A DNA stretch of 64,000 bases from Fragilaria crotonensis (Eukaryota > Bacillariophyta > Fragilariophyceae > Fragilariales > Fragilariaceae). Made by a program: the position numbers and the translations under genes. The DNA is taken from positions 25,149 through 89,148 of the forward strand of contig JAKSYS010000207.1 in NCBI GenBank assembly GCA_022925895.1, read 5' to 3'. Below the pieces are notes generated by a model. That model did no database searches and had not been told where the DNA came from. It saw only the letters and a list, made by a program, of their open reading frames with translations. Below, in pieces: positions 1,405 to 58,250 of this stretch (position 1 is its first letter; every line of letters begins with the position of its first letter).

Positions 1405-1715
1405 GTCCTTGTTCTTTACTTGCGCAGAGGAAGCGTGTGATTTTACTACCTATCGGTACTATCTAACCTGTGATAGACGAATAGGATGTAAAGGGCTTTT
1501 AGAAATTTATAAATCGGTGTTAGCCAATATTGTGAGTATTGATTGCAGATTATCATTTGATCCAGAATGTGGGGACATTAGTACCTTGACATAATGGTGA
1601 CGTGATTGCAAGTATAATTCCTACCACAATTGATACTGTACCAATGACCGAGTATTGTATCATGAGGTCATAATACGGTAAGTCGATTTGGGTAGCGTTG
1701 TCATACTGTGCCTAG
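1405..1715. other. Gene-free stretch between elements I and E
   Basis: No coding ORF is supported here. By position it should hold the leader, and perhaps the 5' LTR, of minus-strand element I, plus the truncation point of element E near 1.7 kb. I could not find a second copy of any LTR-like sequence to prove this. The plus frame used by element E is closed by a TAG at 1713-1715. Confidence 0.4.
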
Positions 1716-4715
1716 CCGCACTGCTGTCCGGCTGCACCGTCGTATCATCACACAGCAAGGCCTCAACCCCCAACCAAGTCCAAGCAATTTGCAACTCCCA
1801 TCAATGTTGCCAACCCTTTCTATGTCAAGCCACCTATCAATGCTGCAATCCCATTCACCATTTCAATTGATGATGATGAAACTGAGACCCCTTCAACTCC
1901 TTCAAGCAGAAACAGAACTCAATCATGTCAGGTCAATTATTTGAAAACCTTCAACACCTCTGGACCTAGGAATCTTGATGCACCACCATCTCCAGCAATC
2001 AGTCTCAATTCAGAACTTTTCAGTCCCTTGTTTTCCAATTTGAGCAGCAGCAATGACAGCACCTTTGATTGCCTTTCCACATCCACTGGAATCACAGCAT
2101 TTCTTGAACTATCTGATGATGATGAAACTTTGGAGCTTCCATACCGCCTTGACAAACTGCACATCCCTTGCCCTGAAGACAATGTCTTGGACCCAATCCA
2201 TCATGTCCCCTTTTTGCAACACCATTCTGATTTGGATTCCAGAACCAATCCCCATGCCTCACTTCTTTTCTATGCTGATGCAACTCTTCAAGATGATATC
2301 AATGGGCCAATCACCATGTGCAACCTTCCAACATGTGTTGATTCAAGTATCACAGCTGCAAGCTTCTGCCTACGTTATATCCAGTCTAATCCAGTCACCA
2401 AACAATGCATTCGCGACTTGACGACCGAACATCTTCGCCACCTGATGTGCAACCTTTATCCCATTCTCATTGCTGGATCTGACAAAGACCCCAATCAAGA
2501 GGAATTCATTCAATGCATCCAACACACTTTCAACAGAACTACCAATTTGGTCATGGACAATCTTTCTTCTGAGCACAGATCTCAACTCACCAATGGCACC
2601 CCATCATTATTTGTATCCCTTTTGAGTGACTATGAACCTGGATCCTTTGGACATGAATGCTCCCTATCCATCCTTTATGCCTTCAAGATGATGTATCTCA
2701 TCCACCTTTATATTCAGGGACAAACATCTTCATGCCCTCACCAACCTCCTGAACTTGCTGATATCATTCGCAATATCCCAACTTTTGCGACCGCTCTACG
2801 TCTTTTCCCGAACCGGAGTAACTTCAGAGATGTCCCGCGCTTCATTATCAAATTCTTCCAAGATCAGCAACTGCCTCCCAGTCCCTATGATATCACTTTG
2901 GACAGCACCAGGACTCGCCATATTCAAACTCCTACACATTTGGACTCTGCATCCCTCATTGCATTCACTCATTCACCGCTTGTCAACGGTTTTGGAGAAC
3001 CCACAACTGGAATATCTCCATCTTCTTCCCATGTTGCCCGTGTCTTAATCTCAGCAACACTCCGCCAACATGCAACTTTGACTTCCAAACTCACAACTGG
3101 AGATGACTTACATTTGCAATCCTCAAACATTTGCATTGGTTCCCTTCCTCCTGCTGATCTACTCATGAATCACAATTGCTCAGCCTTCCCAATGGCCACA
3201 TCCCCTACACCTGAACAGTTATCAATCATGCACTCAAAAGCCACTGCTATTGCCGTCAACTTTGTCATCTGCCGTCCGCTCACTTCCAATGACCTTCAGA
3301 ACTTCACCATTCCAATTGGAAACTGTGATTATGCAACCCTTAAGTCCAACTTTGACCCCATCAAGACAGATACCATCAACCATTCCATTGATTTCCTGCC
3401 AGATCATGAGTATACCATGTTCAGAGTTGTCTCAAACATCAATGTCACTGACCCTCAATGTGTCCTACCTCAGACACCCTTGCCAACCAAAGTCCTTATC
3501 TTCCAAGGCAACACCCAAGAGCATCAGTCAACTCCTTCCTACACTCCAGGATCCCCAACTGAGCTTCCTATTCCATTGCCAAGTGCTCACATTTTCCCTC
3601 TTATCTACAACAAGGAGAACAAACCAATCATTTTTCACCAACACAATGGGACCATCAAACCATACACAACAACAACAGTCCAACAGCTTTTCAATGACCA
3701 AGCCTGCATTCCAATGAACACCTGTTATGCTGCCAATCCCTGGACTTGCCCCAACAATCCTAGCCAACTTTGGCGCCAACCAAATCCTGTTTATCATGTT
3801 ATTGATGATCCCAAAACCATTCCCTTGTCTCTTGCAACTCGCCTCATCCAAGTGATTACTACAAAACGTGGATCCACCGATGTCTATGGATCCTGGGCTC
3901 TCCCACACCTTGAGAATGCCCTCAGCAACCCATTGTCTCAGATCACTCACAATCCTTTTTCATATTATTGGCAACAACACAATCATCCTGAATATCCTTT
4001 CATCAAAGCCTCTGAACCCAATATCTTGAGCAACCCCCCTGGTGAGTCTGGTGTGAACACTAGTCTCTTTAACAACCAGGTTACTACTTGCAACTTACCT
4101 GATCCTTCTTGCCTGTACAGACACATTGGTGTAAATGCTACAAGAATGGACAGCAGTAATTGTAATGTAGTAAGATTTCAATTGGACAAACAAGAATCAT
4201 CTTTTTGTGAACACACAGCCCTCATGGTTGTCCGCACCCGTAGATCGTCTCTTCAAGAAGAAAATCCCCCTGAAATTGAACCAGAAACTGCAGATCCAGA
4301 TACTTCTGACAATTCTTCCGAAACTGACATTTCCCGACACGAAACGCATAACATTGATGCAAATCAGCCATCTTCTGACGTCCAAGCTCAAGAAATTGAC
4401 ACACCTGCCGAAAATCCTTTGAAACGTCTCTCACGCACTGTCACACAAATTCTGTCTCCAAAATCTGTGCAACCAGACACCCAAATTGAAACATCCTCTT
4501 CACCAAAGACAGACACTCCATCCAAACCTGCAGCAAAGGACAAACCTGCAAAACATCCAACTTTGCCTATCCTCCAATTCATGAAACATTCTTTACTGAT
4601 GATGAAGATAATGAAGACCAACAGGATGACCCTCCTCAGATCCCTTTGCAATCCCCAGATGCACTTACTTCTTCAACCAGAACTGACTTCACTTATCCAC
4701 CCATTGAAGATTTAA
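1716..4715 (+). pseudogene. Long N-terminal coding region of element E, unknown protein running into gag start
   Basis: This is a 999-codon open frame with no stop from 1716 to 4713. The first in-frame ATG is only near 2316, so the true start lies upstream of the truncation. I do not recognise the first 800 or so residues. They look like a folded protein, with many Trp, Cys, Phe and Pro residues and mixed hydrophobic segments, and they do not resemble Gag. From about 4200 the sequence becomes acidic and Ser/Thr/Pro-rich and aligns with the region just upstream of gag in element D (shared PLKR motif). The frame is lost near 4.6 kb, and gag continues in another frame from 4646. The extension could be an element-specific accessory or capsid domain, or a captured host gene. 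Confidence 0.6.
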
Positions 4716-6831
4716 CTAAAACCCTTTTGAAATATGCCAAAAATGCCAATCTCCGGAAACTATCATACCCAACCGATCTTGTCGCCCGACGCCGACAATT
4801 CAATGCCTTCATGGATAACCTCCGCATCGTTTGTAACATCTCTCCCTGGACACGCCAAGTCTTTGATCTTTGGCCCAAACAGATTTCCTACTCCCATCCC
4901 TTCATTGGCACTGCAATTTACAATCTCATTTTACACATGTCTGTGATCCCTGCCAAAAACACATCATTGATGGCCCACCAGATGCCAGAACTGCAATCTT
5001 TACTCTCCGCCGACATTGTGCTCCGCTTACTCCAGATCATGTTGAACGCACAAGAGAAGCCTTTTATTCTATTAAACAAGGCCACAATGAAGTTGCAACC
5101 TCCTATTTGAATCGCATCCGAGTTTTGACGCGCGATTGCTACCACGCCGGCATTCCCAACACAGACGCAGATCTTATTAAAAGAGCCATTCGCGGTGGAA
5201 GTAATCACCATTTTTATGCTGCCTCTTACCAACGTTTTGATGCCGACCTCCGCAGAGCCGAACTTAACGATGAAGAATTGCCCGCTTTCTCCGAACTTGA
5301 AAGCCATCTTTTGAATATTGACGAATCCCTTGGCCTAACTTTGCCATCACAAAATCAACGCAATTATAACCAACATGCCAATGCTGCCCGTCAACAATCC
5401 CATCGCCCTGCCCATCGTCCGACTTTCCAAAAACAGTTCACCCCGCGACAACATCAAGCTCTCAGCTCAATTCTGCGACCTTATACCCAACAAAACAGCA
5501 GCAGCAATCGGCCACCAATCAGACCCCAAAGCAACCAAAATCAGCATTCAAACCGTCCGAACAATCACCAAAACAATCGTCGCAACGCTCCGCCACCTAG
5601 ATCGAATCATGGCAACCGACCGCCCTTGCGACCAACTTCATCAAACTCCAACAACCAACGTCGACCGCAGAGCAATTCCACCCCATTTCGGCCAAATCCT
5701 TCACCCAATAATGCCACCAACATAGTTTGTAACAATTGTGGAAGAACTGGTCACTATGCAAGACAATGCCCAACTGCAACTAACAGACCTCAGAACAACA
5801 ATAACAGAAATGGAGGAAACCCAAGGTCACCAACCAATAATGAGAACACTGCTCCCAGAAATCAAAGAGCTTATTTTGTCACTGATTCATCTTCACCTCA
5901 TGCTGAAACAACTCATTACCATCAAGCCTTCCTTGCCTCATTAAACAACAACCCTGCCTTCAACAATGGCCCACCAACAATCTGGCCTGACACCAACTTG
6001 CCTCAAATGGAAATCAACCCATCACTGACTGACAATGATTTTGTACCCTCCATGTCACACTCACCTCCCAGCACTGATGCAATTGAATACTTCCCAGATG
6101 ATCCCATGTCTGCATATCAGCGCTTTGGACCGCCAGATCTTGATAATTGGCTCCCTGACAGTGGTGCTACAAGCCACTACACTCCTGTCTTCAGTGATCT
6201 CCATGATGTTGAACCCTGCCATGTACCTGTTTCCCTTGCTGATGGAACCACCAAGATATCCACTTTCAAAGGCACAACTGACTGTTTCTTTACAACCACA
6301 GAAGGACAGAAAGCTATCCTTGGTCTTGCGGATGTTTACTACATTGAAGGTCTTAGCCACCGTCTTCTTTCCCTGACTGCCATCTCTGCCACCCAAAACT
6401 TCACAGTCATCATCCAAAACAGAGCAACCACAATCCGCTTTCCCAACAATTCAACATACACATGGCCAACCATCCTTCAAGAGCTACCCTCTGAACAAGC
6501 TTTCTCTATGACTTCCCAACCCAACACAACTTCTGATGACACTCCAAACCCACCTGCCATCACTTTTGAGCAACACTTGGACACTTCAACCAATTCAAAC
6601 CCAGACCAACCCACTGCAACCTTGCCACTTGAGATCACATCCCGTCGCCTTGCACATCGTAATTTCCGCAATCTTATGACTGGATCCCTTCACCATGTTT
6701 GGAATGATCACATTTTGTCACCAGCCACTGACACTCAAACTTGGCCAATCAGAATTTCAATCAGCCAAAAACGCCAGAAGCAAAGTCCCACTCCGCCAAG
6801 GTTCAGAACCATTCCATCAACTTCACCTTGA
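4646..6831 (+). pseudogene. Gag, zinc knuckle and protease of element E (frameshifted)
   Basis: Gag coding starts in the frame of 4646-5110 and switches to the frame of 4870-6831 near 4.93 kb, as the collinear element D protein shows. Domains in order are: capsid-like helical region; Asn/Arg/Pro-rich linker; CCHC knuckle CNNCGRTGHYARQC at 5728-5769; aspartic protease motif DSGATSHY at 6157-6180; and a GAG-pre-integrase-like stretch with LSHRLLSL near 6352. The frame then breaks at about 6.8 kb, inside the start of the integrase. The product would be capsid, nucleocapsid and protease of a copia polyprotein. Confidence 0.75.
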
Positions 6832-8530
6832 CCTTTTGAGAAACCCATTCCGTTTTGGCCTGACAACTAACACTAACTATTCTGCCTACCTTTTCATTGT
6901 GACAACCCCTGGCAAACTAACTGGTTGGATTGGACTACCCACTGAAAGTACTTTATCCATCCTCACTGCCCTGCAATCTTGGCTCACACAATCAGAACTT
7001 CTTGGACGCACCCAATCTGTCCGCTTTATCCGCACTGATGCTGGAACAGCATTTACTTCTGCCAAATTCATCTCAACTTGCACCAACCTTGGAATCAAAG
7101 TTGAAGCTGCAGCCCCTGAACATCAAGAAATGAATGGAATTTGTGAAGCCAAATGGAGAGAAGTCCACAACATTGCAAACACTCTGCTCAACACTGCCAG
7201 ACTTGGAGGTACCTTCTTTCACCATGCTCATGCCTATGCAGTCCAAATTGTCAATGCTTGCCCTGCAAAGAATGTTACTGATCAAGATGGAAATCCTACA
7301 ACTCCCTTCCACTATAGTTATGGCCGAAAACCCAGCCTCATCAACTTCCGCGTATTTGGATGCCCAGTCTATTTCAAACGTTACGAACCGACCTTTCGGA
7401 ACAAGTTAATCACTTATAAACAACAGCTCCAACGTGCATCCCGTGGAACTTTTATTGGATTCCCTGACAACTCTGCCGGCTGGCTTGTCTACTCTCCAGA
7501 CCATCCTCAACGAATTATCACAACCCGTGACGCTTATTTTGATGAAGATTTCAGCTCTGCCCTTGCTTTTGACTCCAAACCTTTTGCTGGAGCCATTCCT
7601 ATCCGCTCCCACATGGACCCTAATGGACTAGAAAATGTTAAGAATTCTGAACCCACCATCATTCACCAAACTGGATCTGTTGCCAACCTTGGAATCAACC
7701 CTTCCTCCTTCATTGAAGAACTCACAACAGAAGATCCTTCAAAAACACTAAACATAAGCACCAATAATGTTGATAATCACCCTCCTACTGAGAATGATGA
7801 TGACACTGATGATGATGATCTACAACCTGGTCCAACACCACCTGCACCTCAACTGCTTAATCTCACTCATCACCAGAAGAGACACACACCCCTTCAGAAA
7901 GAGATGACACTCTACTTCCAAGAATGTGCTGAATCACTACCATCCATTGATCCTATCCACACTGCTATGCTTGCCCTTGATGCCTCTGCTGAAACATCTA
8001 CAGAAAATGATGATCCTGTTGATAAATACTTGCCAGAACCCCAATCCTTTCAAGCTGTCCTCAAACTTGATGATGACATCCGCTCTGCCTGGCTTCATGC
8101 AATCAAAATGGAAATCAAGAACCTCATTGATCATGGTACCTTCATTCTTGGCCAGAAACCCCATGCAGATGAATTGATTATCCCAGTTAAACTTGTGCTC
8201 AAAGCAAAGCAAACAGCATCTGGCAAACTTGACAAACTCAAAGCCCGCCTTGTTGCCCGCGGCGACATGGAAAAGAGAAGAATTAAGAAAACAAAGCAAA
8301 GTACCAGCAGCAACTACTTAAGCAAAGAGAAGAGAACACCAAAAGTTAAGAAGTCTAACACTATCCCAATTGAGATCCCTCAACCTTTTGAAGACACATG
8401 GTCACCCTGTGCATCTTCAAGAGGGGTCAAGCTCTCATATCCAAAACCTGTGCTTTCCGCCGCATCCTTAAAGGTGCTGACTTCATTGGAGCCTATCTTC
8501 AAGCCAAAGTTATTGGACGTCACTTTGTGA
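6695..8530 (+). pseudogene. Integrase core, linker and start of RT of element E
   Basis: This segment carries the integrase DDE core: Asp in HLDL at 6830-6832, Asp in RTDAG at 7037-7039, and Glu in ICEAKW at 7145-7147. A copia-type integrase C-terminal region follows (FGCPVYFKRYEP), then an acidic, low-complexity linker containing runs of Asp. RT begins around VKLVLKAKQ (8190). The frame is lost near 8.45 kb, where the protein turns to nonsense; RT resumes in the next segment. The catalytic triad is intact, unlike in element D. Confidence 0.75.
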
Positions 8531-9855
8531 TCCTGCCACTTTACCTTGCCTACCACTTCCCAGAATATGCCAAATACTTTGGAGTCCCACTTCTTCTTGA
8601 CAAAGGAATCTATGGCCTTGTCTACTCAGGCAAATATTGGAACATTGAATTCTCTGAATGGCTATACTCTCAAGGATTCATCCAATCCCAAGCAGAACCA
8701 TCCTATTTTGCTTACTATGACAAACACAACCAATGGCTTCGCCTCCTATTCTTTGTCGATGACATGCTTTATGTTGGAAGCAATGATTCCATCGAGAAAT
8801 CTTTCGAAGATTCCGTCCGCAACCGCTTTGACGTGAAATTCCTTGGTCCTGCACAATGGTTCCTGCAAATGCGCATCCACCGCCACAAAGATTCCACTTA
8901 CACTCTAGACCAACACCGATATGTCTTGAACGCTCTCCAACGTTATGACCCGAATTCCGAATTCCCTGAACGCGAAACTCCCTTCCCACCCGATTACGTC
9001 TTCACCAAAGATAACCGCCCTGTCACTGATCATGACAAGTCTATAATTGAGAAAAGACATTCCCGCCTCCCGTTTCGCTCAGCCGTATGCACCCTACTTT
9101 ATCTAGCATATAACACACGTGCCGATATCCTTTTTGCAGTCTGCAAACTTGCAAAAGCCTGCATCTGCCCCGGTGAACTTGACTTCCGCGCCCTTATCTG
9201 GTTATTTGGCTATCTCAGACGCCGACCCAGCTATGCTTTGAAATTCTATCCTGATGGCACTTCTAACCCAATCTATAGTATCTGTGCCCAACACAGCATT
9301 CCATACTCTGACCTGACTGTCTTCTCTGATGCCAGCTGGCAAGATTGCCCTGACACTGGCAGATCAACTGTTGGATACATGATCTTTCACAATGGTGCCC
9401 TCATTGAAGCCAACTCAACAATGCCTACCCCAATTGCAATGTCAACCTCTGAAGCTGAATACATGGCTGCCTGTTCTGCAACTATGGCTACTGCCCACAT
9501 CAGAATGCTTTTATATGATATGACATACCTTGGCACTAAACAATGGCGCGAATCATCCCAACGTTTACCTACAATCCCATCTGTCCTTATGATTGACAAT
9601 GAAGCAACTGTTCAAATTGCCAAGAATGGCAAACTAACTCGCAAAACTCGCCACATTGAAAGACGCTTTCACTTTGTCCGCCAAGGCCAACAAGATGGTA
9701 CTCATCAACTCTATTGGATCCCTTGTGACTCTCAACTTGCTGACATCCTAACCAAGACTCAGACATCATCCAAGATTGATCCTCACCTTGACAAAATCTT
9801 TTGCACACTCCCTGATCACCTACTTTCTCCATCACCAATTTCTACGGAGATCTGA
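8398..9855 (+). pseudogene. Reverse transcriptase and RNase H of element E
   Basis: This segment continues RT with ADFIGAYLQAKV, the KGIYGLVYSGKYW block and the catalytic box FVDDMLYVG (8752-8778). RNase H follows, with Asp in SDASWQD, Glu in STSEAEYMAA and Asp in IDNEATVQ, and then the conserved LADILTK tail. Copia RT and RNase H copy the RNA and remove it from the hybrid inside virus-like particles. The first roughly 20 codons overlap the previous frame and are not real RT. Both catalytic centres look intact, but the segment is cut off from a start codon by upstream frameshifts. Confidence 0.8.
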
Positions 9856-9866: not shown

Positions 9867-10770
9867 TGACAGACTTTTAGTACCGCTCCTACGTATTTTT
9901 ACTATCTACATTATCCAGTAGGACACTTCACATTAGGCTAGTAAACAGTATACGTCGTACCGTTACTGTCGCACGGGAATCATATCCCACTCCAAAATTG
10001 CAACGATCAAATTCATGTCGTTCGTTATAAAAACGATCGTTTTCTCGCCCGGCGCTTCACCTCGTTCGCTCTCTTCAGACGTACGAACTTTCAGACGTGC
10101 ACTCTTCAGACGTACACCGTTTCTTTTGTGATCCTGAGTGTTCCTGAAGAACACTCATCAAAAGAAGTTGATCATCATTTGATGATCAACAATTTCTCAC
10201 AAATTTGTCTACCACTGTAAATATATTTAGCCGGCCCCCGATTTTTAACAATGTACAATTTTCGTAGCAGCGTAACTGACCATGACGACTTTTTACCCGC
10301 CGTCGTCACGATTCAGTCCCCCTGTAGCGATAGCCAGTGTACTAGTACCCACTTGGCTACCGACGTCACCGTAGGACTCCACCCACGTCCACATACTGTA
10401 GTGTCACCTACGCGCAACGTAGCACCATCTACTTGCATCGTACCTACAGATACTAGCACAGTTGCTTCGCCTACTAGCACTGTGTCTACGTCTACATGTA
10501 CTGTAGTTACGCCTAGTCATACCGTAGCTCAGTATACCCGTCCAGTAGACTCCCACGCGTATACCGTCGCGTCTGCTACTAGCACTCCCGCTTCCTCTGC
10601 CGCTAGCGTAGCATCCAGTAGTCCTGAAACCGTAGCACCGGCCAACGTTCGTACTGTAGCGACCGATACCGTCACCGTGACGTCACCACCTGCCTGCGAC
10701 CCCGGTCTGGCGTGCGCCCGATTTAACCATGGTCTGGCCTCCACTCCGCGCTCGCACGCAGAATCTATCA
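9867..10770 (+). repeat. 3' LTR of element E (904 bp)
   Basis: It starts with TGACAG right after the polypurine tract AAGAGGGG and ends with CTATCA, so the termini are TG...CA. Most of it is repeated at 56386-57256 (element F), and that match ends at the same CTATCA, which fixes the 3' boundary. Two adjacent perfect hairpins lie at 10136-10156 (8-bp arms) and 10167-10190 (11-bp arms). An open reading frame begins inside the LTR at 10251. Confidence 0.85.
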
Positions 10771-10775
10771 GGTAG
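10251..10775 (+). CDS. LTR-internal ORF, putative start of the E-family polyprotein
   Basis: This ATG-initiated 174-codon ORF remains open from inside the LTR to its 3' end and stops five bases into flanking DNA. It begins MYNFRSSVTDHDDFLPAVV and continues as a Ser/Thr/Val-rich low-complexity stretch. The start and the DHDDFLPAVV-like peptide recur at 56733 (element F) and, more divergent, at 57801-58244 (LTR G). In a complete element the 5' LTR copy would read on into the internal region, which fits the absence of an early ATG in the 1716-4715 frame. In this solo 3' position it is probably not expressed as a useful protein. Function is unknown; the link to the internal ORF is inference. Confidence 0.45.
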   Translation: MYNFRSSVTDHDDFLPAVVTIQSPCSDSQCTSTHLATDVTVGLHPRPHTVVSPTRNVAPSTCIVPTDTSTVASPTSTVSTSTCTVVTPSHTVAQYTRPVDSHAYTVASATSTPASSAASVASSSPETVAPANVRTVATDTVTVTSPPACDPGLACARFNHGLASTPRSHAESIR

Positions 10776-11806: not shown

Positions 11807-12256
11807 CACTACTTGCGTATAGTACTGAACTGTACAAACAGTACACACAACCGTGCACAAACCATACCGTACACGTATTCCAAAAGTCCGACCAATTGGG
11901 AGGTACCCACTAGTATATTAAATAGACATGGGAAACTGAAGTTCTACTACTGTATCGTTACGAATAAAACACTGCAAGGATTCGAGGTCGAAGGAAAGGA
12001 AGCAACGCGAAGCTTAAGTGTAATCCAAATATTGTTCTTATTTTTTTACACTCTTTTAATAATCGTTTCAGCATCATCTTTCTTATTACCTTCATCTAAC
12101 CATTTCAGGTAAGATTATGCACAGTCACTCTGTTCCAATTTACACGAATGATGAGGGAAAAATACGGCTACGATCATAACCTTCCAAGTTCCAAGTGCAT
12201 ACTTTCACAAATCTCACTCCACACTGACCAGCATCGCTTTATAGCTTGATCTGATC

Positions 12257-13168
12257 ATGGTGATGGTAAGCCAATCAATGAAACCGGCTCGAAATGGTTG
12301 GTTGTTTGCATTTGCAATCTGTACCTCCTTCGGGATTGTGATGGTGAACTTGAAACTGACGACCCCACACGTGCGGTTAGCAACTACGACAAGAAAATCG
12401 CGACTGGGCGATGGCTGCTACCATGTCTATTTGGACGTGGGTGCAAATATTGGAGTTCATGGTCGATTTCTGTTCGAGCCTCACATGTATCCTAACTCGA
12501 AAAAATCTGTCCCATTGTTCAACAAGCAGTATGGCCAAGATCGTGCCAACGAGGACTATTGTGTTTTTGCTGTTGAAGCCAATCCCAACCACTGGCCAAG
12601 GTTAAAAAATGTCAGTGACGCGTATGCTGCATTGGGTTGGAGGTATCACTACGTTCAGGCTGCCGCCTGGGATCGGGATGGGGTCATGGTTTTTCATCAC
12701 CAGGGAGATACAGGCCATAATGAGTGGGGCTTCTCGGTCAAGAAGCGGACAGTCCAAGGTGTCAACGCTGTTGACGTTCCATCCATTTGTCTTTCTGAAT
12801 GGATTCAACGTGAAATTCTTGAGAGGGAAATTCCAGAGATTCCTCGCTCCCGAAGACAATACCCAAACCCAGTTGTTGGAATGAAAATGGATATTGAAGG
12901 ATCTGAATACATCGTTCTTCCTGACCTGATGCTTACTGGAGTTTTTTGTCAACTGACGTTCATGTTTGGAGAGGTACATCCGCATTTTGCACCGCTCAAT
13001 TTCACCGGTCAAGGAGTTGATCTCACCACGCGTAAAAGCGCCGAAGTGCTTCAAGATGCATTGACCACTGTCGTCAAGGCCTCTCGAAACTGTAAAGCGA
13101 AATACTTTCCGGACATTGATGATGAATCCTATTTGCACGATGGAGTGCCACTTCCTGACATCAAGTGA
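12257..13168 (+). CDS. FkbM-family SAM-dependent methyltransferase, membrane-anchored
   Basis: This is an intronless 303-residue ORF. Residues 15-31 form an uncleaved hydrophobic signal anchor after a short basic N-terminus, suggesting a type II membrane protein of the secretory pathway. The SAM-binding motif I, YLDVGANIGVHGRF, lies at 58-71 and is followed by the acidic motif FAVEANP at 104-110. The FkbM signature GMKMDIEGSEYIVLP lies at 208-222. FkbM-fold enzymes methylate hydroxyl groups of sugars, polyketides or other small molecules; the substrate here cannot be told. ATGs at 12257, 12263 and 12278 are all possible, and the first is chosen. It is the only gene in the window that is not recognisably part of a transposable element. 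Confidence 0.8.
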   Translation: MVMVSQSMKPARNGWLFAFAICTSFGIVMVNLKLTTPHVRLATTTRKSRLGDGCYHVYLDVGANIGVHGRFLFEPHMYPNSKKSVPLFNKQYGQDRANEDYCVFAVEANPNHWPRLKNVSDAYAALGWRYHYVQAAAWDRDGVMVFHHQGDTGHNEWGFSVKKRTVQGVNAVDVPSICLSEWIQREILEREIPEIPRSRRQYPNPVVGMKMDIEGSEYIVLPDLMLTGVFCQLTFMFGEVHPHFAPLNFTGQGVDLTTRKSAEVLQDALTTVVKASRNCKAKYFPDIDDESYLHDGVPLPDIK

Positions 13169-13498
13169 AAGGTAGACCCATACTGGAGACGTTGAGCACC
13201 TTGATGGCACACATCATGCATCAAGTATGTCATCAAGATGTGTGCCTGAAATCTTGAGTGTAAGGCGCAACCTACTAAATATCTGCATCAATACCATTCC
13301 ATCCACTCTCTCAATACATCAAGTGTCAGCACTCTCACTTCATACACGTAGCGAAACTACGGGGTAGCTAAGGGCTTAAAAGCAGGCTTTGGAAGAATAA
13401 TACAGTATGCATACTACATACTGGTATTGACTTCCTGACAGTGTTCGTGTGGTCGGTACACGAGTACTGGCCGACGGTAGACTTAAGGTTAGTAGGAC
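13169..13498. other. Gene-free stretch downstream of the methyltransferase
   Basis: I see no ORF of note. It should contain the 3' UTR of the methyltransferase gene. No convincing structural signal was found. Confidence 0.5.
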
Positions 13499-16271
13499 CT
13501 AGTGTCTAGCCTCCCGGAGCCTTGGGGTTAATTAACCCCGTCCCGATTTCCACTTCGTGTGTACAAAAAATACTCAAGTCTACTAAAAAGGGGTCGGGTC
13601 GACGATGACGGTCAAAACGATGATGATGCTACAAATGAATGATGATTGAAACGTTAACACATTGTTTAAATGTCATCTAAGTGTGTGTGGTTGCGAGTGC
13701 GAGCAATATGAGCAATATGGTCGAGGAAGCACCGTTTTCCATTTTTGGTTGCGCCAAGGAACACCGTTTTATTGCTATCATTGCAGTCACTACATTGCCA
13801 AGTTGTCTTCTTTTGACACTCCTTACATCGGCCTTGGTACCTAAATGATGTCTTTTCTCCATGGGCATTCTTAAGTCTCTTCACCGGAGTCAAGTGGGTG
13901 AGGACTCCAGCACGTGCACATCCACTTTCCACGGCCCTGATGCATGCCTCTTGGTAGGATGTCCCATTTGGGGACGACCTCGGTCGTCGCGTTCCTGTTC
14001 TCCGATTGTCGCAGCTATTGTCAATAAGTTCCTCCGCAAGGAGGGAGTAAAACTCCTTTTGTAGACACTTTCTTTGCTGCTGCGCAGAGGAAGTACCATT
14101 TTTGAATGCGTTGTACACGAGCCATGTATCGACGACGATCATGGCAAAAATAGAAAGGTTAACGCGAACCGACCAATCCTTCGTTTCGACCTTCTTCTCG
14201 ATCCGAAGGTCGTCTTGACGATACCGATTGTGCCTGTTGATGGCACCACACGTAGTATGGTAGACCTCCGCAATTTGAGGTTGCTTGATGGTCATGGTGA
14301 CCCGCTCCAGAGGAGCATTCCGATCTTGACTCACTTGCCGCCAACGGCAGTGAGTGTATGGCGTTCCTTCCGAGAGAGCCCCTGCTGTTGCAATACAGTA
14401 CCTTCGTTCCCGATCCATCCACACGAAAGCAACCATAGCAGGATCCAGTTCGTCTGCAGAATCCGAAGCAAGGGCGAAGAAATCACCACGTTGGTTCAGT
14501 TCCACCGAAGTGAGGAAGGCTCTTGGGAAACCTCTTGTTGCGGTCTTGACGACGCCGATGAAACGGAGGCCGTTCCGGAAGAGTTATTTTGCCGCTCCAA
14601 CAGAAGCAAAGTACGAGTCTGCACAAACAATGCGATTCAAACCAAACCAAGGTGAGACAACAGATTTCAACACTTGTGTACCATGCAACAAACTTGACTC
14701 ATTGTTTGGTTCATCATTGTCTTCCTCCTCACCGACGAGGTCAATACCTTTGACCAACTTCAAACGCAACATCACTCCGCTTCTACCACACGCAGCGTTC
14801 TGAATTTCGCAGCCGTTCTCCGGCTTTCGGTCAATCGCGACGTATTGTGGAAGGCCGTGGTTGATCCAGTGCCCTCACTGGCCGTACCAACGGCTCATGG
14901 ATTCGTCGACACAAATTGTGTCGGACGGAGTGAAATAATTTGCTCTGTGGTCGTTGAAGTTCGCGACAAAGTCATCCACCAACTTCCACCGATGTTGCTC
15001 AGTACTTTCGTTCTCAGCTTGTTCAGAAGGTTGCTTGCTCCATCGAATAGCGCGAAAGAGGTCGTCAAAGCGATGCTTTGACATACCGGTGAGTCCAAAG
15101 TGAGGTGCAGGTCGATACTTCATCGGCGCGACAGAACTCCAAAGACTCGCCCTGGATGTGAATTCAAAAGAAGTCATGAGTATTAACACACCAAAGAATT
15201 TCAGAAGCTCCGAGGTGTTAGTCGTATTGGCGTCCAGCTTCTCAAGCTCAACGTTAGTCAGATCAACCATCGCAACAAGCTGTTTTGGAGGGAACATCAG
15301 AAGAAAGAAGTCGATGGCACTCATACCATTTATTGCTGAATTCCGTTGTCCAGGGTAGAGGTCCTCACCAACTACATTCCTCACACTCCACATACGTGGA
15401 GCGCAATTACCATTCAATGAAGTCTCAGTGCTGAATGCCCTCCGCCACTCAACATGATGAGAAGTTGCAACAATGGAACGATCGTTCGCTGCAACAGTTG
15501 CTACAGCAACTGCTGGTGCGGCTGTCGTTGTCTCCAAACTCGCTCGTGCCTGCTGCTCCGGCTCCTCATCCGAACTTTGAATGGCATCAAGCATTTCTTG
15601 GGTGGTCATACCGGCAACAGAAGGTGCTCCGACGTTGATCGTTTCATTAACATCTTCGACGTTTTCATTCACGAGTGCAGTCACGGGTTCATTGCTCACA
15701 CCAGTGATCGATTCTGCGTCGGCCATCTTGATCCCTCTCAAATTCAACTGGCACCTCTTAATAGTGCCACCACCAAGCTCGTAATCTGCGGTGACTAGAG
15801 TTGTTGCCCTTCTCCCGCCGTTCGATGAAGCGGAATCAACCGAAACGACAGTCCCATTAACGAACTTCGTTTTCGCGTTGGCTCCATATCGTCGATGGCA
15901 CTCGGCCAGGACTGTCACGTGGTGAGCTTTCGCTTGCACCCGTGCCCGAACCACATGTCGAGGATCATTTCTGGGCATTGTGAGCTCAGTTGCTTATGAG
16001 CAGATGCAGGTGCAGCACCACAAAGTTCATGGGGCAGCGCCAAAACAAACGATTGAAATTCGGAAGCAAAAATTTTTAGCTGCTGAAAATTTTTAATAAC
16101 TCTACAACAAAGAAGATTGAGCATACCCCCGTTGACGGCATGCCATCTAGATGTGTTACGAAGGCATAGGCCAATCCTTAAAGCCAACGGACCTTGTCAC
16201 CGAATTGGCGGAGCATATCCAAGGTTGGCAAAAACGAGGTTAATTAACCCCATCGGGAGGCTAGACACTAG
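13499..16271 (-). mobile_element. piggyBac-like DNA transposon, defective
   Basis: Inverted copies of CTAGTGTCTAGCCTCCCG lie at 13499-13516 and 16254-16271. Just inside each is a TTAATTAACC-type block (13528-13537 and 16240-16249). TTAA is the obligatory piggyBac target, so the true ends may be at these TTAA sites, with the outer 18-bp repeats being either longer terminal inverted repeats or flank. The transposase gene between them reads on the minus strand and has two nonsense codons. Confidence 0.65.
13666..15978 (-). pseudogene. piggyBac-type transposase (DDE_Tnp_1_7) with two in-frame stops
   Basis: A single frame runs from ATG at 15978 to the stop at 13666 and is broken only by TGA at 14875-14877 and TAA at 14584-14586. 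The N-terminal 190 residues are variable. The DDE core then contains the block FFGVLILMTSFEF, the first Asp in CVDESMSRWYG just before the TGA, the second in CADSYFAS just before the TAA, and the third in VVDTWLVYN. The C-terminus has a cysteine-rich, zinc-binding type cluster (CKEC, CSDC, then Cys/His). The gene would encode cut-and-paste transposase acting at TTAA. All three catalytic Asp codons survive; the stops make it non-functional. Confidence 0.85.
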
Positions 16272-16449
16272 AAGTCTAGCGTTGGACTTGGGCGATGGTG
16301 TTTTGTACACATACACCATGGCGGTAGATTTGTTGGTACAAGGATGTAGAAATGTAGGAAACTTAGTAGTAAAGGCCTTTACTGTTTTTGGTTTGTGGAA
16401 ATTATAAGATGAATTAAGGATGAAAAGTGAAGGTGAGACTAGCAACATT

Positions 16450-16666: not shown

Positions 16667-16682
16667 TGAGACTAGCAACATT

Positions 16683-16991
16683 AGTTGGAGTCTCACAAAT
16701 GAAGTGTGGTCTTAGTCCCACTTCCTGAGTGGTGTTTGGGAAGTGTTGTCCATAGTAAAAAGGGTGTTGTTGAAGTTATCAACAACACTCATGATTTGAA
16801 TTACATAGGAAGTAATTCAAATCATTTTTGTGTTGCAGACCGGTACCAAGTTCTGATTCTCAGAATTCTACTGGAACGGGTCACGGACAGACTAGGAAAG
16901 ATAAAGGACTGTCTACTGTATTACCGTATGGTATTTAACCTTACAGTAAGTACAAGAGACAGTGTGACAGAGTGACGGTAGATTCCTAACA
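16683..16991 (-). repeat. Part of the 3' LTR of element D
   Basis: On the minus strand the LTR starts TGTTAGG at 16991, directly after the polypurine tract CCAAGAGGGG. Two perfect hairpins lie inside: arms 16791-16804/16812-16825 (14 bp) and 16764-16773/16779-16788 (10 bp). The LTR very likely continues past the SINE toward 16.3 kb, but its 3' end cannot be placed because no second copy is present. Confidence 0.6.
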
Positions 16992-17002
16992 CCCCTCTTG
17001 GA

Positions 17003-19306
17003 TCAGATCTCTGGTCCCGGTGATGAAAGCATGTGGTCGGGGAGAACACAGAAGATCTTGGTGAGGTGAGGATTGATTTTGCCGGAGTATTGAGTCTTGG
17101 TGAGGATATTGGCAAGTTGAGAGTCACAGGGGATCCAATGAAGTTGGTGAATGCCGTCTTGTTGGCCTTGATGGACAAAATGGAAACGGCGTTCGATGTG
17201 TCGCGTCTTGCGAGTGAGTTTTCCATTCTTGGCGATTTGGACAGTGGCTTCATTGTCAATCATGAGGATGGCAGGTATGGAAGGAAGACGTTGGGTTGAT
17301 TCACGCCATTGTTTGGTGCCAAGCTAGAGCATATTGTAGAGAAGCATTTGGATGTGAGCTGTGGCCATTGTGGCAGAACATGCGGCCATGTATTCAGCTT
17401 CAGAAGTAGACATTGCAACAGGTGTAGGCATGGTAGAATTGGCTTCAATGAGAGCACCATTGTAGAAAATCATGTATCCAACAGTGGAACGGCCAGTGTC
17501 AGGGCAGTCTTGCCAGCTGGCGTCGGAGAAAACGGTGAGATCGGAGTATGGGATACGATGGTGAAGGCAGATGTCATAGATGGGATTTGAAGTGCCATCG
17601 GGGTAGAATTTGAGAGCATAGTAGGGGCGGCGGCAAAGATAGCCAATGAGCCAAGATAGGGCTCAAAAATCAGGTATGCCAGGGGAGATGCATGCTTTAG
17701 CAAGTTTGCAGACATCATATAGGATGTCAGCTCTTGTGTTGTATGCAAGGTAGAGTAGAGTGCAGACAGCAGAGCGGAAGGGAAGGCATTGTTGCTTTTG
17801 TTCGACGAGAGTAATGTCAGAGGAGGTTACGGGGTGGTTATCCTTGCTGAAGGTGTAGTCAGGGGGGAAGGGGGTATCGCGTTCGGGGAATTCGGAGTTC
17901 GGGTCATAATGTTGGAGAGTATTCAAAACGTAGCAGTGTTGATCCAGAGTATAGCTTGAGTCAGAATGCTTGTGGATACGCATTTGGAGGAACCATTGCG
18001 CGGGGCCGAGGAATTTGACATCAAAGCGATTGCGGACGGAATCTTCAAATTGTTTTTCGATGGAATCGTTGCTTCCAGCGTAGAGCATATCGTCGACAAA
18101 AAATAGGAGACGGAGCCATTGATTGTGTTTGTCGTATTGGACAAAATAAGACGGTTCGGAAGGAGACTGGATGAATCCTTGGGAGTAGAGCCATTCCGAA
18201 AATTCAATGTTCCAATATTTGCCGGAGTAGACGAGACCGTAGATTCCTTTGTTCAGTAACATTGGGGAGCCAAAGAATTTAGCGTATTCAGGGAAGTGAT
18301 AGGCATATTCCAATGGTAGTTTCACGAAGTGGCGACCAATAACTTTAGCTTGGAGGTAGGCACCAATGAAGTCAGCACTCTTGACACTTCTTCTGGATGC
18401 ACAGATGGTTGCAATGAATAGTTTGACCCCTCTTGCAGATGCACAGGGTGACCAGGTGTCTTCATAGATGAGTGGTTCAACAGGTATGGGTTTTGGAGTG
18501 CCAGGTGAAGGGGTAGATTCAGCAATTTCTTGACGTTGTTCAAGGAGTCGTTGTTGGTTGATGGCTTTGACTCTTTTCAGGAGATGTTTCTCCAGGTTGC
18601 CACGGGCGACAAGGCAAGCTTTTAGTTTGTCAAGCTTGCCAGTTGCAGTTTGTTTTGCTTTGAGCACAAGAAGTTTGACTGGGATAATGAGTTCATCTTT
18701 GTGTGGAGTTTGTCCAAGGATGAAGGTTTCATGGTCAATGAGGTTCTTGATTTCAATTTTGATTGCATGTAGCCAAGCATTGCGTACATTGTCATCAAGT
18801 TTGAGGACAGCTTTGAGAGACTGAGGTTCTGGAGGATATTTGTCCACAGATTCCAGGGGGTTGGCTTGTGAATTGTTGGTGGGAGAGTGGTCAATTGTCA
18901 TCATGGCAGAGTGAATGGGATCAATACTTGGTAGATCTTCATTGCATTCTTGGAAGTATATTGTCATCATTTTATGGAGTTGAGAGTGATGTTGTTGATG
19001 GGTGACAAAGTTGACTTGGTGTGGTGTGGGTGGTGTTGGACCATGTTGAGGAGTTGTATGTTTGATTGCAGCAGGTGTAGAAGGTGGTGGATCGTCTTCA
19101 TGGGCATTGTCATCAGTTTCAGGGATGGCAGGGAGGGAAGAATGATGGTTGGAGGTATCAATGAAGGTAGGTGGAAGGTTCAGAGTTCTCTGGGGTGTTG
19201 CGAAGTCCATTCGGATTGAAGTGGGAGCGGATGGGTATGGCTCCAGCAAAAGGTTTGGAATCAAAACAGAGAGCGGAGTTGAAGTCTTCATCAAAGTAGG
19301 CATCAC
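17003..19306 (-). pseudogene. Integrase C-terminus, linker, RT and RNase H of element D
   Basis: One minus frame covers the end of integrase, the acidic/Pro-rich linker, RT and RNase H. The RT catalytic box FVDDMLYAG lies near 18075-18102. A TGA at 17663-17665 replaces an Arg codon of element E between RT and RNase H, and a TAG lies near 17328. RNase H resumes and ends at 17003 with IDNEATVQ and LANILTK. The order and sequence follow element E closely, showing that this is the same family with independent decay. Confidence 0.75.
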
Positions 19307-20207
19307 GGGTTATGATGAGGCTTTGGGGTTGATCTGGTGAGTAGATTAACCATCCTGCAGAGTTGTCGGGAAATCCAATGAAAATTCCGCGAGATGCACG
19401 TTGGAGTTGTTGCTTGTAGGTTATAAGTTTGTTGCGGAAAGTTGGTTCGTAGCGTTTGAAGAATGTTGGACATCCAAAGATGCAGAAGTTGGCGAGGGAA
19501 GGCTTGAGTTGGAAGCTGTATTGATAGGGAGTTGTTGGGTTGCCATCTTGGTCAATAACATTCTTGGCTGGGCAGACATTGAGGATTTGAACAGCATAAG
19601 CATGTGCATAATGGAAGAATGCACTTCCAAGTCTTGCATTGTTTAGAAGGATGTTGGCAGTGTTGTGGACTTCACGCCATTTGGCTTTGCAGATACCGTT
19701 CATTTCTTGATGTTCAGGTGCTGCAGCTTCAACTTTGATACCAAGTGAAGTGCATTCAGAAATGAATTTGGCTGAGGTGAAAGCAGATCCAGCATCAGTG
19801 CGGATAAAACGGACGGATTGGGTGCAGCCAAGGAGTTCTGTGTCAGTTAGCCATTGCTTTAGAGCAGTAATAATGGAAGCTGTGCTTTCAGTTGGTAGAC
19901 CAATCCAACCTGTTAGTTTGCCAGGTGTTGTGACAATAAACAAGTAGGCTGAAAAGTTGGTATTGGTTGTGAGACCATAGCGGAATGGGTTGCACATAAG
20001 GTCAAGATGAAGGCGATGGAAAGGTTCAGTGCCTTGGCGTTGAGGAGTTTTGTTGCGGGCACGTTTTTGGCTTATCGAAATGCGTAGAGGCCAGGAGTTG
20101 TGATCAACAGTAGGTGTCAAGACATGGTCATTCCATGTTTGGTGAAGGGATCCGACCATAAGATTGCGGAAATTGCGGAAAGGGAGGTGTCGGTAGATAA
20201 GTTCCAA
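19158..20207 (-). pseudogene. Integrase core of element D, catalytic Glu changed to Lys
   Basis: This holds the integrase catalytic domain: Asp in HLDLMCNP, Asp in IRTDAGSAF, then NGICKAKWREV. Element E has Glu (GAA) at the corresponding position; here it is AAA (Lys) at 19686-19688. Loss of the third DDE residue would abolish strand transfer. The frame differs from that of the downstream RT segment, so a frameshift separates them within 19158-19306. Confidence 0.75.
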
Positions 20208-20338
20208 AGGTAGAGCGGTGACTGAACGGCGTTGATCGGTGTCAACAGGAAGTGTAGTGTCATCAAATGTTGTTCATCAGGTTCAGAGCCAGGGTCAGGA
20301 GGTAGGTTAGAGTTGGAGATTGTTGAGAAGGCTTGTTG

Positions 20339-20827
20339 TCATGAAGGGAGTTCTCTGGTCAGTATTGGCCAAGTGTATGTGGAGCCATTTGGGAGTTGGA
20401 TTGTTGTGGCTCTGTTCTTGATCAGGACACTGAAGTTTTGAGTGCATGATAGAGCAGTTAAGGAGAGGAGTCTGTGGCTGAGGCCTTCAACATAGTAGAC
20501 ATCAGTGAGTCCTAGGATGGACTTGAGGCCATCATCAGTGGTGAAGTGGCATTCAGTTGATCCTTTGTGGGTGGACATCTTGGTGCTGCCATCAGCTAAG
20601 GAGATTGGGACACTGCAGGGTTTGACATTGTGGAGGTTGCTGAAGAGTGGAGTATAATGGCTGGTAGCACCACTGTCAGGTAGCCAGTTTTCAAGATGTG
20701 GGGGACCAAATCTTTGGTATGGTGATTGGGGATCATCATGGAAGTAATCTGTGGCTCCAGAGTTGGGAGGAGAATGATTGGCAGATGAGAGATAATCTCT
20801 GTCAAGGAGAGGTTGGTTGATGGTCAT
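20339..20827 (-). pseudogene. Protease region of element D
   Basis: The aspartic protease motif DSGATSHYTP follows WLP, as in element E, and the conserved LSHRLLSLTAL block follows it. Protease cleaves the copia polyprotein. The segment is out of frame with gag upstream and ends at a stop before the integrase. Confidence 0.7.
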
Positions 20828-22830
20828 CTGAGGTAGGTCAGGATTGGGCCAAGGGATGTTGGATGGGTGATCATCAGTATTGTCAAGGGATGAAGCTCTG
20901 AAAAGGCTTGATGGTGGTATCTTGATTGATCTGGTGAGTTTTGGTCAGAGTCAGTGATGGAGTAGGCACGTTGTTGGTTGCGTGGAGCAGCGTTTTCATT
21001 GTTGGATGGTCTTTGAGGGTTGGCGGAGCGATTGTTTTGGTTGGATCTGGGGTTTGTGCAGTTGCGCGCATAGTGGCCGAGGCGTCCACAGTTATTGCAG
21101 ACGATTGTAGCGGTATTGGAAGGGTTGTGCGAATGGTTGTTGTTGGATCCGTTGGGAGATGGACGTTGATTGGGGCTCAACGTCGGTCGGAAAGGTGGTC
21201 AATTGTTTTGTTGAGGCTGGTTGGATGGCCGCGGGGAGGGTAGTGGTGGTCGACGTTGATTCGAGTTGTTGAATGGTGGTCGTGAAGGATGTGTAGGGGG
21301 TCAGAACGGGCGCGAATGGTTTTGCGGTGGTCGCGGCGGTTGGTTTCGGTTTTGATTGTTGCTGTTGGGATTGGAATAAGGTCAAAGGATGGAACTGAAA
21401 GCTTGTTGTTGTCTTTGTGTGAAGACACGTTGGGTAGTTTGGTTGTGGCGCGGTTGAAAATGGTGGGATTGGTTAGCACGGGCAGCGTTGGCGTGTTGGT
21501 TGTAGTTGCGGTGGTTCTGGGACGGGAGTGTGAGGCCACGGGATTCGTCAATGTTGAGGAGATGGCTTTCGAGTTCGGCGAATGGTGGCAGAGCTTCGTA
21601 ATTGAGTTCTGTGCGACGTATGTCGGCGTCGAAACGTTGATAGGATGCGGCGTAGAAGGAGTGATTGCTTCCACCACGAACGGTGCGTTTGATAAGTTCG
21701 GCGTCGGTGTTGGGTATTCCAGCATGATAGCAGTTGCGCGTGAGAAGGCGAATGCGGTTGAGGTAGGAGGTTGCGACTTCATGATGTGGTTGTTTGATGG
21801 AGCAGAAAGCTTTGCGTGTTGGTTCAACATGATCAGGAGTTAGCGGAGCGCAGTGGCGGCGTAGAGTTAGACTTGCAGTGCGAGCGTCTGGTGGACCATC
21901 AATGATGTGTTTCTGGCAAGGGTCACAAACGTTTGTGAAGATCAAATTGTAGAGAGCAGTGCCAACAAAAGGGTGTGAATAGAACACTTGTTTTGGCCAA
22001 AGATCAAAGACTTGGCACGTCCACAGGGAAATGTTACAAACAATTCGAAGGTTGTCAATGAAGGTGTTAAAGTGTTGGCGGTGTGCTTGAAGGTCGGTTG
22101 GGTAGGACAATTTGCAATGGTTAGCACTTTTGGCGTACTTCAAAAGTGTTTTCGTGAGGTCTTCGATTGGTGGACAAGTGAAATCGGCTTGCGTTGATGA
22201 TGTGAGCGCATCAGGGGATGTGTGTTGAATGTGCTTGGGTTCTTGTTCTGAATCATGGTCTGTGTCCTCATCAAAGAAGGTTTCAACAGTGGGAGGGTAT
22301 GTGAAGGTTGCATGGGTCGCCTGGTGGCGCGGAGTTGGGCGTGTTGCAACGAATTTTGGTGCATTTTGGGGGTTTTGGTCGTCGTTTCCAGAATTGGGTG
22401 ATTTTTGCGTGTTTTTGGCAGATTTCGTACTGGGAGGTTGAATAATTTCGTTGTGTTGAGTTTGGGGTTGCAAAAGATTTTGCGACGGATTTGGTGGCTG
22501 GGGGTTCGAATTTTGGGGTGGGAACTTTTTGGTAGGTATAATTTTGGGTGTCGTTGAAAAAGTTGTCGAAATCGGAGGTTCTGGGTTCGAGTCGGTGGTG
22601 GCCGGATTGTGAGGTAATTTTACATTTTTTGGCGTGAGAATGCCTGAAAATGCGTCGGAGAAGCGTTTTAGAGGTCCAGTTGTTGATTTCGCAGTTGGAG
22701 ACGAGTTAGAGGGTGTTTCGGTGTGTGAACTGCTTGTTTCGGGCGAGTTTGGTGGTAAAAATGCGAGATTTGGTTGAGTTCCGGGCAGTTGTTGAGTTGA
22801 ATAAAACCTACCGTTACTACTGGAAATCCA
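20824..22830 (-). pseudogene. Gag and zinc knuckle of element D (frameshifted)
   Basis: The frame from 22830 to 21382 encodes a Ser/Thr/Pro-rich leader with the PLKR motif and then the capsid-like region (PPIEDLTKTLLKYAK, VFDLWPKQ, CDPCQKHIIDGPPDA) also seen in element E at 4.6-5.1 kb. After one or more frameshifts near 21.2-21.4 kb, the knuckle CNNCGRLGHYARNC appears in the frame of 20824-21180. No ATG precedes 22473, and the 5' end is cut off at the element C LTR. Confidence 0.7.
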
Positions 22831-22951
22831 TCATTGTGGGGCAGCATGGCATTAGTGATCAGGATAGAACAAAATTATAGGCTAAGCTCGGAGAAATCCC
22901 ATACGGTCTGGCCGTAGCCCAATATAACGCAGACACAGTAGAATTCGTGCA
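22821..22951 (-). repeat. Probable 3' LTR of element C (about 131 bp)
   Basis: On the minus strand it begins TGCACGAATTC after GCTCGCGGGGAC, the same polypurine-type tract that precedes the 3' LTRs of elements A and B. The 3' limit is placed at TTTCCA because element D coding sequence starts there. There is no second copy, so the exact end is uncertain. Confidence 0.5.
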
Positions 22952-24751: not shown

Positions 24752-24846
24752 CACACAATATTTACTTCTGAAACTCGTAAACACGTTCTGTCCGTCGTCC
24801 GTTTTTTACGTAGGTTTTCTTGTACGTTTTGTTGCAACCAACCACC

Positions 24847-56063: not shown

Positions 56064-57256
56064 TTGAAAATGTTGAGAATTCAGAACCCACCATCATTCA
56101 TCAAACTGGATTTGTTGCCAACCTTGGAATCAATCCATCCTCCTTCATTGAAGAATCCACAACAGAAGATCCAGCAGAAACATCAGACATCAGCACCAAC
56201 AATGATGAACATCCTCTTCCTATTGAGACTATTGACAATGATGATGACACTGATGATGATGATCTTCAACCTGGTCCAACACCACCTGCACCTCAACTGC
56301 TCAACCTCACTCACCATCAGAAGAGACACACACCCCTTCAAAAGGAGATGACACTTTATTTTGCTGAATCACCACCATCCATTGACGTATTTTTACTATC
56401 TAGATTATTCAGTATGACACTTCACATTATGCTAGTACACAGTATACGTCGTACCGTTACTGTCATATGGGAATCAAATCCCACTCAGAAATTGCAACGA
56501 TCGTTTTCATGTCGTTTGTCATGAAAACGATCGTTTTCTTCCCCAACGCTTCACCTCGTTCGCTCTCTTCAGATGTGCGAACTCTCAGACGTACACTTTC
56601 CAGACGTACGTCGTTTCTTTTGTGTTCCTGAAGAACACTCATCAAAAGAAGTTGATCATCCATTGATGATCAACAATTCTACTCACAATTTGTCAACTTA
56701 AATTTTTATTTAGCTCGGCGCCCAATTTAGCAATGAACAATTTTTGTAGCAGCGTAACTGACCATGACGACGTTTTACCCGCTGTCGTCAAGGTTCAGTC
56801 CCCTGTAGCGATAGCCTGTGTACTAGTACCCACTTGGCTACCGATGACGTCACCATAGGACACCACCAACGTCGACACACTGTAGTACCATCTACCCGCA
56901 ACGTAGTACTGTCTACTTGCACGGCACCTAACACATACTAGCACAGTAGCATGGGCTACTAGCACTGTGCCTTCGTCTTACATGCACTAGAGTTACACCT
57001 ACTCGCACCGTAGTTCAGTATACCTGTCCCGTAGGCACCCACGCTTATACCGTCGAGTCTGCTACTAGCACTCTTCTTTCCTCTGCAGCTAGCGTAGCAG
57101 CCAGTAGTACGGATTCGGTAGCACCGGCACCCGTTTGTACTGTAGCGACCGATACCGTCAGTGTGACGTCACCGCCTGCCTGCGACCCCGGTCTGGCATG
57201 CGCCCGATTTAACCATGGTCTGGCCTCCACTCCGCGCTCGCACGCAGAATCTATCA
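56064..57256 (+). mobile_element. Element F: internally deleted E-family copy with LTR
   Basis: 56064-56384 matches the integrase-RT linker of element E (ENSEPTIIHQTG, PGPTPPAPQLLNLTHH). At about 56385 it jumps into the LTR at the position equivalent to 9890, so the rest of pol, RNase H and the first two dozen LTR bases are gone. The LTR part ends CTATCA at 57256. It contains the LTR ORF start (ATG at 56733, MNNFCSSVTDHDD) and the hairpin 56651-56674. Confidence 0.75.
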
Positions 57257-57406: not shown

Positions 57407-58250
57407 TGACAGACTTCCAGTATCGCCCTACATATTTTTACACGTATCCCTATCCCTAACTGTCGCCCGTGTGCACAGTAAAAACGTTACATCCGTGCTC
57501 CAGTAACCAGTGCGACACTGCACGACTGGAATCAAAACTCTCGTCGATTTGAATTTCATGTTCATCTCATCCCATGAGATTGAACACTCATTTTCAAACG
57601 AGACTCAACGCCTCGTATACGGACGACCACGCCGTGACACGAAACGACGTCTCCGCGAAACGAGGAGTGTTCCTTATTGTTCCAAAGGAACACTCCCTTC
57701 ATTCAGACCTCTCATCTGTTGCCCCTCCTCACTCTTCTCACAATTGTCGAAATAATTCATTTTTAGTGCCACTCACCTTTTCTGCACATACTGCACATAT
57801 TTGCACATGATGAATGAATTTGACCATGACGAATTTTTACCGCCGGTCGTCAAATTGTCAACCTCACCATACTGTACATATATCAGTAGTCAGTACAACG
57901 GTACTCACTATAACGACAGCACACAACACGGCAATCAGTACAGCAGTACTTTTTGCACATCACTTCCTCTGCCCGGCCATAGACCGTGCACGTCTGAGTT
58001 TACCGTTACCGTACATAACGATAAACTATTAGACAGTGCCCACTATGACCAAAGCAATATTCTTACTAGTCAGTCCCTCGCACATTTATGTAGCGATAGA
58101 CCGACAGATAGTATACGTATCGTTGTCTGTAGCGGTAGACAGCATTGTATTGCTGTACCGTTTATAGACACACTAAGCAGTAGTCAGTGTCGTACTAGAC
58201 ACTTACCTACTGGGGGCGTACCCCGTAACGGCGGGATTCGCTAGCTCTCC
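57407..58250 (+). repeat. LTR G, divergent relative of the E-family LTR (3' end approximate)
   Basis: It starts TGACAGACTTCCAGTA after GTTCAAG, closely resembling the start of the E LTR and its preceding bases. It has a 12-bp perfect hairpin at 57664-57675/57685-57696 at the place equivalent to the E LTR hairpins. An ORF with a peptide resembling the E LTR ORF start follows. The right boundary is set only by the end of that ORF. Confidence 0.55.
57801..58244 (+). CDS. LTR-internal ORF of LTR G
   Basis: This is a 147-codon open frame. The segment MNEFDHDEFLPPVVKLSTSP resembles the start of the E LTR ORF (DHDDFLPAVV), although the surrounding nucleotide sequence has diverged; the remainder is Ser/Thr/Asn/His-rich. 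The ATG at 57810 (Met before NEF) is the likelier start. Its preservation in two diverged LTRs suggests selection on the encoded N-terminus. In its present solo context it leads nowhere. Function unknown. Confidence 0.35.
   Translation: MHMMNEFDHDEFLPPVVKLSTSPYCTYISSQYNGTHYNDSTQHGNQYSSTFCTSLPLPGHRPCTSEFTVTVHNDKLLDSAHYDQSNILTSQSLAHLCSDRPTDSIRIVVCSGRQHCIAVPFIDTLSSSQCRTRHLPTGGVPRNGGIR

Follow-up and report, generated by a model that had tools for sequence, protein, structure and literature searches.

A long open reading frame in the LTR of a copia-type element of Fragilaria crotonensis as a candidate polyprotein start

Described LTR-internal starts and the Fragilaria element

The LTR of the Ty1 element of Saccharomyces cerevisiae is 334 bp long. 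According to the parts of PMC5454406 drawn on here, Ty1 GAG starts inside the 5' LTR and its coding passes the primer-binding site; the DNA from position 241 corresponds to R and U5, the RNA has a 53-nt 5' UTR, and changes of the primer-binding site at 335-347 keep the GAG protein. The figures of that source, combined with the above LTR length, place about 14 Ty1 codons in the LTR, as against 173 low-complexity codons in the frame opening at position 10251 of the locus described here. A GAG start internal to the LTR is already known from Ty1, and the present element, which we call E, would be a variant of such starts. The CoDi Ty1/copia elements of diatoms (Maumus et al. 2009, PMC2806351), compared by description, have a copia domain order like that of E, LTRs of 153-844 bp and TG/CA ends in 23 of 26 families; unlike what is considered for E, the excerpts of that account make no mention of an ORF started in the LTR. 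The barley copia element BARE resembles E in its long LTR and has a mapped leader and start site, but, according to PMC3735527, an untranslated leader separates its LTR from the gag start codon, in contrast to a start at 10251. A literature search of partial coverage, on a subject for which wording varies, found no copia element described as beginning its polyprotein with a long LTR-encoded part.

The window, i.e. the whole stretch of 64 kb that was analysed, contains eukaryotic mobile elements in a nested arrangement. The internal coding sequence of E (1748..9855, forward strand) consists of five overlapping ORFs with 4 frame changes, and its 5' end is missing. It encodes, in order, an N-terminal region, a gag with a CCHC knuckle, an integrase part and an RVT_2 reverse transcriptase. 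The ORF at 6680-8530 matches SH3_retrovirus (E-value 5e-13) and, weakly and below the cut-off, rve (E-value 0.03), while the ORF at 8392-9855 matches RVT_2 (E-value 2e-16); an integrase ahead of an RVT_2-type reverse transcriptase is the Ty1/copia domain order. The 3' LTR of E (9867..10770, forward strand) is 904 bp long, has TG...CA ends and is preceded by the purine-rich tract AAGAGGGG. Its start was set by the TG after this tract and by the TGACAGAC that begins the related LTR G, and its end at 10770, where the similarity between E and the copy F stops and the TG...CA ends. No 5' LTR of E or of any E-family copy was found in the 64-kb window, in which E is represented by its 3' LTR only. 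Searches for relatives of E returned none, either in viral contigs (queried with the reverse transcriptase, the LTR-end pattern and an alignment of four reverse transcriptase sequences) or in genome contigs and phages (queried with a piece of the reverse transcriptase).

Openness, codon composition and constraint of the LTR frame

The open frame of the E LTR (10251..10775, forward strand) begins with an ATG at 10251 and has 173 codons before the LTR is over; its stop, TAG at 10773-10775, lies 3-5 bases beyond the LTR end, and the stop-free stretch leading back from that end in this frame measures 183 codons. It has no Pfam match at an E-value of 0.1. Near its start it encodes the motif DHD(D/E)FLP(A/P)VV (10278..10307, forward strand), which alignment and BLASTN identify as common to E and G and whose DNA in both is GAC CAT GAC GAC/GAA TTT TTA CC... 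Further downstream lies a degenerate array of 21-bp (7-codon) repeats (10398..10628, forward strand) with 11 register-keeping units, which, if translated, would be rich in V, T, S, P and A; the identity at lag 21 in the E frame is 0.387, with a shuffle 95% level of 0.323.

The first-pass annotation had described a similar ORF start in the three LTRs E, F and G, with a frame that in E and G has no stop as far as the LTR end or close to it. This holds in full for E. G (57407..58250, forward strand) starts with TGACAGAC at 57407 and has a nominal end; its frame (57807..58244, forward strand) opens with ATGs at 57807 and 57810 and comprises 145 codons plus a TAG (58242) in the same register as E relative to the motif, and may extend as far as the LTR end or its vicinity. 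It is a more distant LTR than F, alignable with E mainly at the leader and hairpin, the start and the motif, the BLASTN match being between E 10128-10308 and G 57667-57852 (63%, E-value 9e-6). Copy F (56066..57256, forward strand) is a deletion derivative in which 320 bp of pol (56066-56385) are fused by the deletion to an LTR (56385-57256) without its first 24 bp, at 84-85% identity to E. It retains the start and a motif version DHDDVLPAVV, but not the frame: relative to E it carries indels of 1, 3, 1 and 1 bases within it, and the three 1-base ones break the frame.

The likelihood of such openness was assessed in dinucleotide shuffles of each whole LTR, on both strands. An ATG frame equally long or longer arose in 11 of 2000 shuffles for E, 23 of 2000 for G and 921 of 2000 for F, where the frames of E and G had been picked for their length before chance was computed. 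When the motif sets the register, the chance of an open frame is 0.00245 for E, rising to 0.025 if the 21-bp array is left intact and placed in random phase, and 0.0007 for G under a null that leaves out G's own weak periodicity at 15 and 45 bp (identity 0.333 and 0.338, shuffle 95% level 0.321). Composition alone is unlikely to account for E and G being open together, and the array explains part of the openness of E. The lack of stops in F's aligned columns was rejected as a decisive sign, having a probability of 0.33 under random substitution.

Base use differs by codon position in both frames, with a chi2 of 55.7 in E and 21.9 in G, whereas the upstream parts of the LTRs give 5.7 and 6.1; the array region (10365-10679) contributes most of the E signal, with a value of 61.1, as compared with 16.5 in the first 114 bp and 3.0 in the last 90 bp. 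Purines occupy codon position 1 at frequencies of 0.61 (E) and 0.56 (G), compared with 0.58-0.68 in four gene controls and 0.42 and 0.41 in the upstream LTR. When codon composition was scored in frame 0 after training on the ORFs of E and of a related element, H, the score was reached by none of 600 shuffles for E, with or without its array, by 1/600 for G and by 3/600 for the first 49 codons of E. The corresponding figures are 322/600 and 549/600 for the upstream LTR stretches, 61/600 for the F LTR taken as a plain frame with its indels unmended, and, among the gene controls, 5/600, 18/600 and 22/600 for the gags of elements C, D and B and 76/600 for an FkbM gene. Training on C and D instead lets E pass (4/600), leaves E without its array weak (44/600) and makes G fail (552/600). 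A stricter training, which also left out the N-terminal region of E, gave z-scores of 2.6 (E) and 2.7 (G), with frame 2 of E also at 2.7; under it, 62 of the 1672 stop-closed 480-bp frames, 9 of the 330 frames from ORF-free windows and 57 of the 158 stop-free frames had a z of at least 2.9. A score confined to synonymous choice gave P values of 0.007 (E) and 0.012 (G), with frame 2 of E slightly above frame 0 and with a training set that included one H stretch with 3 stops, removed from the other codon tests. The codon composition of the E and G frames is thus modestly gag-pol-like. As two diverged LTRs are open in one register and have gag-pol-like codons, chance explains the frames poorly, and a purely accidental origin of the 173-codon frame of E is unlikely.

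There is no clear sign of protein-level selection. The comparison of synonymous and nonsynonymous change between copies, which the first-pass annotation had suggested for the LTR ORF, did not clearly bear out a constrained protein: the 62 E/F substitutions in the frame are split 20/20/22 over the codon positions (pN/pS 0.73), and dN/dS is 0.70 (bootstrap 0.42-1.25), while the pol of the same pair, with substitutions of 7/8/18 and two indels of 9 bp each, gives 0.22 (0.09-0.48). By bootstrap, constraint on the LTR frame matches that on pol with a probability of 0.008. The range for the LTR frame takes in 1 as well as 0.496, the gag dN/dS given for two Ty1 lineages in the consulted part of PMC7055915, and a gag-like level of constraint is compatible with it. 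The share of third-position substitutions in the LTR ORF versus pol (Fisher P = 0.085) and a greater third-position variability among the repeat units (P = 0.067) were each tried as decisive signs and rejected.

Where the polyprotein may begin

Our leading but tentative reading, held at less than even confidence, is that translation starts at the LTR ATG at 10251 and that the LTR frame is the N-terminus of the polyprotein. Ribosomes would start at or near this ATG, downstream of a structured leader, and then read the V/T/S/P-rich repeat; in a complete element, they would meet no stop at the LTR end or in the primer-binding site before entering gag, the LTR product forming a low-complexity N-terminal part of the polyprotein. 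The frame would be translated now or have been so recently, and would be fast-evolving. This supposes that the transcript begins upstream of the ATG, that the LTR frame and the internal ORF share a phase and that the product is made.

Two consecutive RNA hairpins with exact stems of 9-bp and 10-bp are predicted in the E LTR upstream of the ORF (10135..10190, forward strand). Hairpins occur in a similar place before the start region in F (56651-56674), G (57664-57696) and H (16825-16764, reverse strand), two each in E, F and H and one in G, with stem sequences that differ between families; RNA folding z-scores are -4.9 (E), -3.2 (F), -1.8 (G) and -6.6 (H). No exact stems of at least 8 bp (loop 3-14) were found in the LTRs of B, C and D. 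If these hairpins act as RNA elements, the transcript would start upstream of the ATG. On sequence grounds, the TATA-like bases at 10218-10229, some 20-30 bp ahead of the ATG, could instead point to an RNA start at or after 10251.

Close behind, and only marginally less probable in our judgement, is the possibility that the frame is incidental: the LTR would be regulatory and partly made of 21-bp repeats, and the polyprotein would start in the missing internal 5' part. As the period of 21 bp is divisible by three, one frame through the array stays open, and an 11-unit array with its own column composition is open in frame 0 at a probability of 0.68. In keeping with this, the E/F comparison shows no clear constraint on the protein, F has three frameshifting indels, and the long gag-side frames of B, D and C reach their first Met 66, 329 and 532 nt into the internal region. 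Against it, G lacks the 21-bp period and is still open in register, and the codon composition signal is present in both E and G.

The lack of an internal ATG, which the first-pass annotation had taken as support for initiation in the LTR, is literally correct, since the first Met of the E ORF at 1716-4715 is at residue 201, but it loses its force if the front of E has been cut away. The stretch at 1471..1747 (reverse strand) adjoining the E coding sequence is a putative 5' LTR of element B, 277 bp long, with TG...CA ends and the imperfect inverted ends TGATACGACG / CGTCTATCA; the gag-like minus-strand ORF of B (109-1449) directly follows it. We infer that B inserted into E and cut it at about 1747, the paired LTR and the target duplication lying beyond the window. 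The internal ORF of E would then have no early ATG because its 5' part was removed by this insertion, the TAG at 1713-1715 that opens the E frame would belong to B, and the absent ATG would therefore be uninformative on LTR initiation, as the incidental origin of the frame also allows. A remnant of the E 5' LTR near 1716 was considered and rejected: a sensitive search of 1440-1800 matched nothing else in the window, the E LTR included, and the stretch reads better as the B LTR.

A start within the LTR at a second ATG (10729..10770, forward strand), with the 10251 frame serving as a leader or upstream ORF, appears improbable. This ATG, which lies in another frame than that at 10251 and is present in F too, has the context AACCATGG and exactly 14 codons to the LTR end in phase 0, in a frame open for 30 codons when counted back from that end. 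Its geometry is that of Ty1, in which the GAG frame begins in the LTR and crosses the primer-binding site (PMC5454406). It falls where the E and F LTRs are most conserved, the last 90 bp having 2 substitutions, the 429 aligned columns before them 60, and the final 45 of 45 bases being identical, but conservation at an LTR end may serve integration or priming instead, and inspection by eye of G 58220-58418, near its presumed end, revealed no ATG.

Some retroviruses have LTR-borne accessory genes, which are a positional analogue of the least probable reading, a separate small protein unjoined to gag, which the register and codon signals would fit equally and for which the G stop at 58242 possibly lies within the LTR, but against which stand the stop-free E frame inside the LTR, its low constraint and the absence of a family match. 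By our judgement, the start at 10251 and the incidental frame are nearly even, followed by the start at 10729 and then by the separate protein.

Returning to the start at 10251, a broader proposal, which we regard as rather unlikely, is a copia family whose polyprotein opens in about 170 LTR-encoded residues, with a hypervariable repeat domain present in both LTRs. With each round of replication the 3' LTR would receive a copy of the coding start, and every solo LTR would retain a promoter, a start codon and a frame able to tag downstream host genes. If so, the LTR would have to accommodate a large coding domain alongside its promoter, transcript-end and priming signals, and solo LTRs would amount to first exons ready for use. 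Otherwise, the locus would illustrate how a repeat period divisible by three and a nested insertion hiding the ORF start can mimic an LTR-initiated polyprotein.

Element H and other elements of the window

The related element H (16990..22830, reverse strand) has a reverse transcriptase 83% identical in protein to that of E; its 3' LTR starts at 16992 and did not match that of E. The gag ORF of H, from 22830, lacks a Met, and the sequence at 22934-22967 resembles the start of the D LTR with its upstream tract (82% over 34 bp), such that the front of the H gag seems to adjoin the end of another element. An E-like start motif noticed by eye near 22840 was set aside, as it is in another frame than the H gag and close to this apparent end. 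When the 3' LTR region of H was roughly rejoined across its putative insertions, no E-like frame was seen in it, the longest stop-free run being about 85 codons by hand count, without an early ATG.

These insertions are of two kinds. A transposon between TTAA sites at 13483 and 16414 (13483-16417), which we take to be piggyBac-like, apparently lies within the H LTR region and contains a transposase part at 14878-15993 (reverse strand; Pfam DDE_Tnp_1_7). The segment at 16435-16682 has 15-bp direct repeats GAGACTAGCAACATT around about 220 bp and, by eye, a B-box-like GGTTCAAGTCC on the minus strand; it looks like a tRNA-derived SINE with its target duplication in the H LTR, although ARAGORN detected no tRNA in it.

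Elsewhere in the window, the segment at 58419-63855 is bounded by 97-bp direct repeats (99% identical) around three large minus-strand ORFs, two of which were scanned and gave no Pfam match at an E-value of 0.1. The segment at 24814-32641 has large plus-strand ORFs of 933, 552 and 831 aa, with no Pfam match at an E-value of 0.01. The FkbM-type methyltransferase ORF at 12245-13168, used above as a gene control, extends over 307 codons from stop to stop amid the mobile elements. Element C (40407-47068) has two identical 194-bp LTRs and is therefore a recent insertion.
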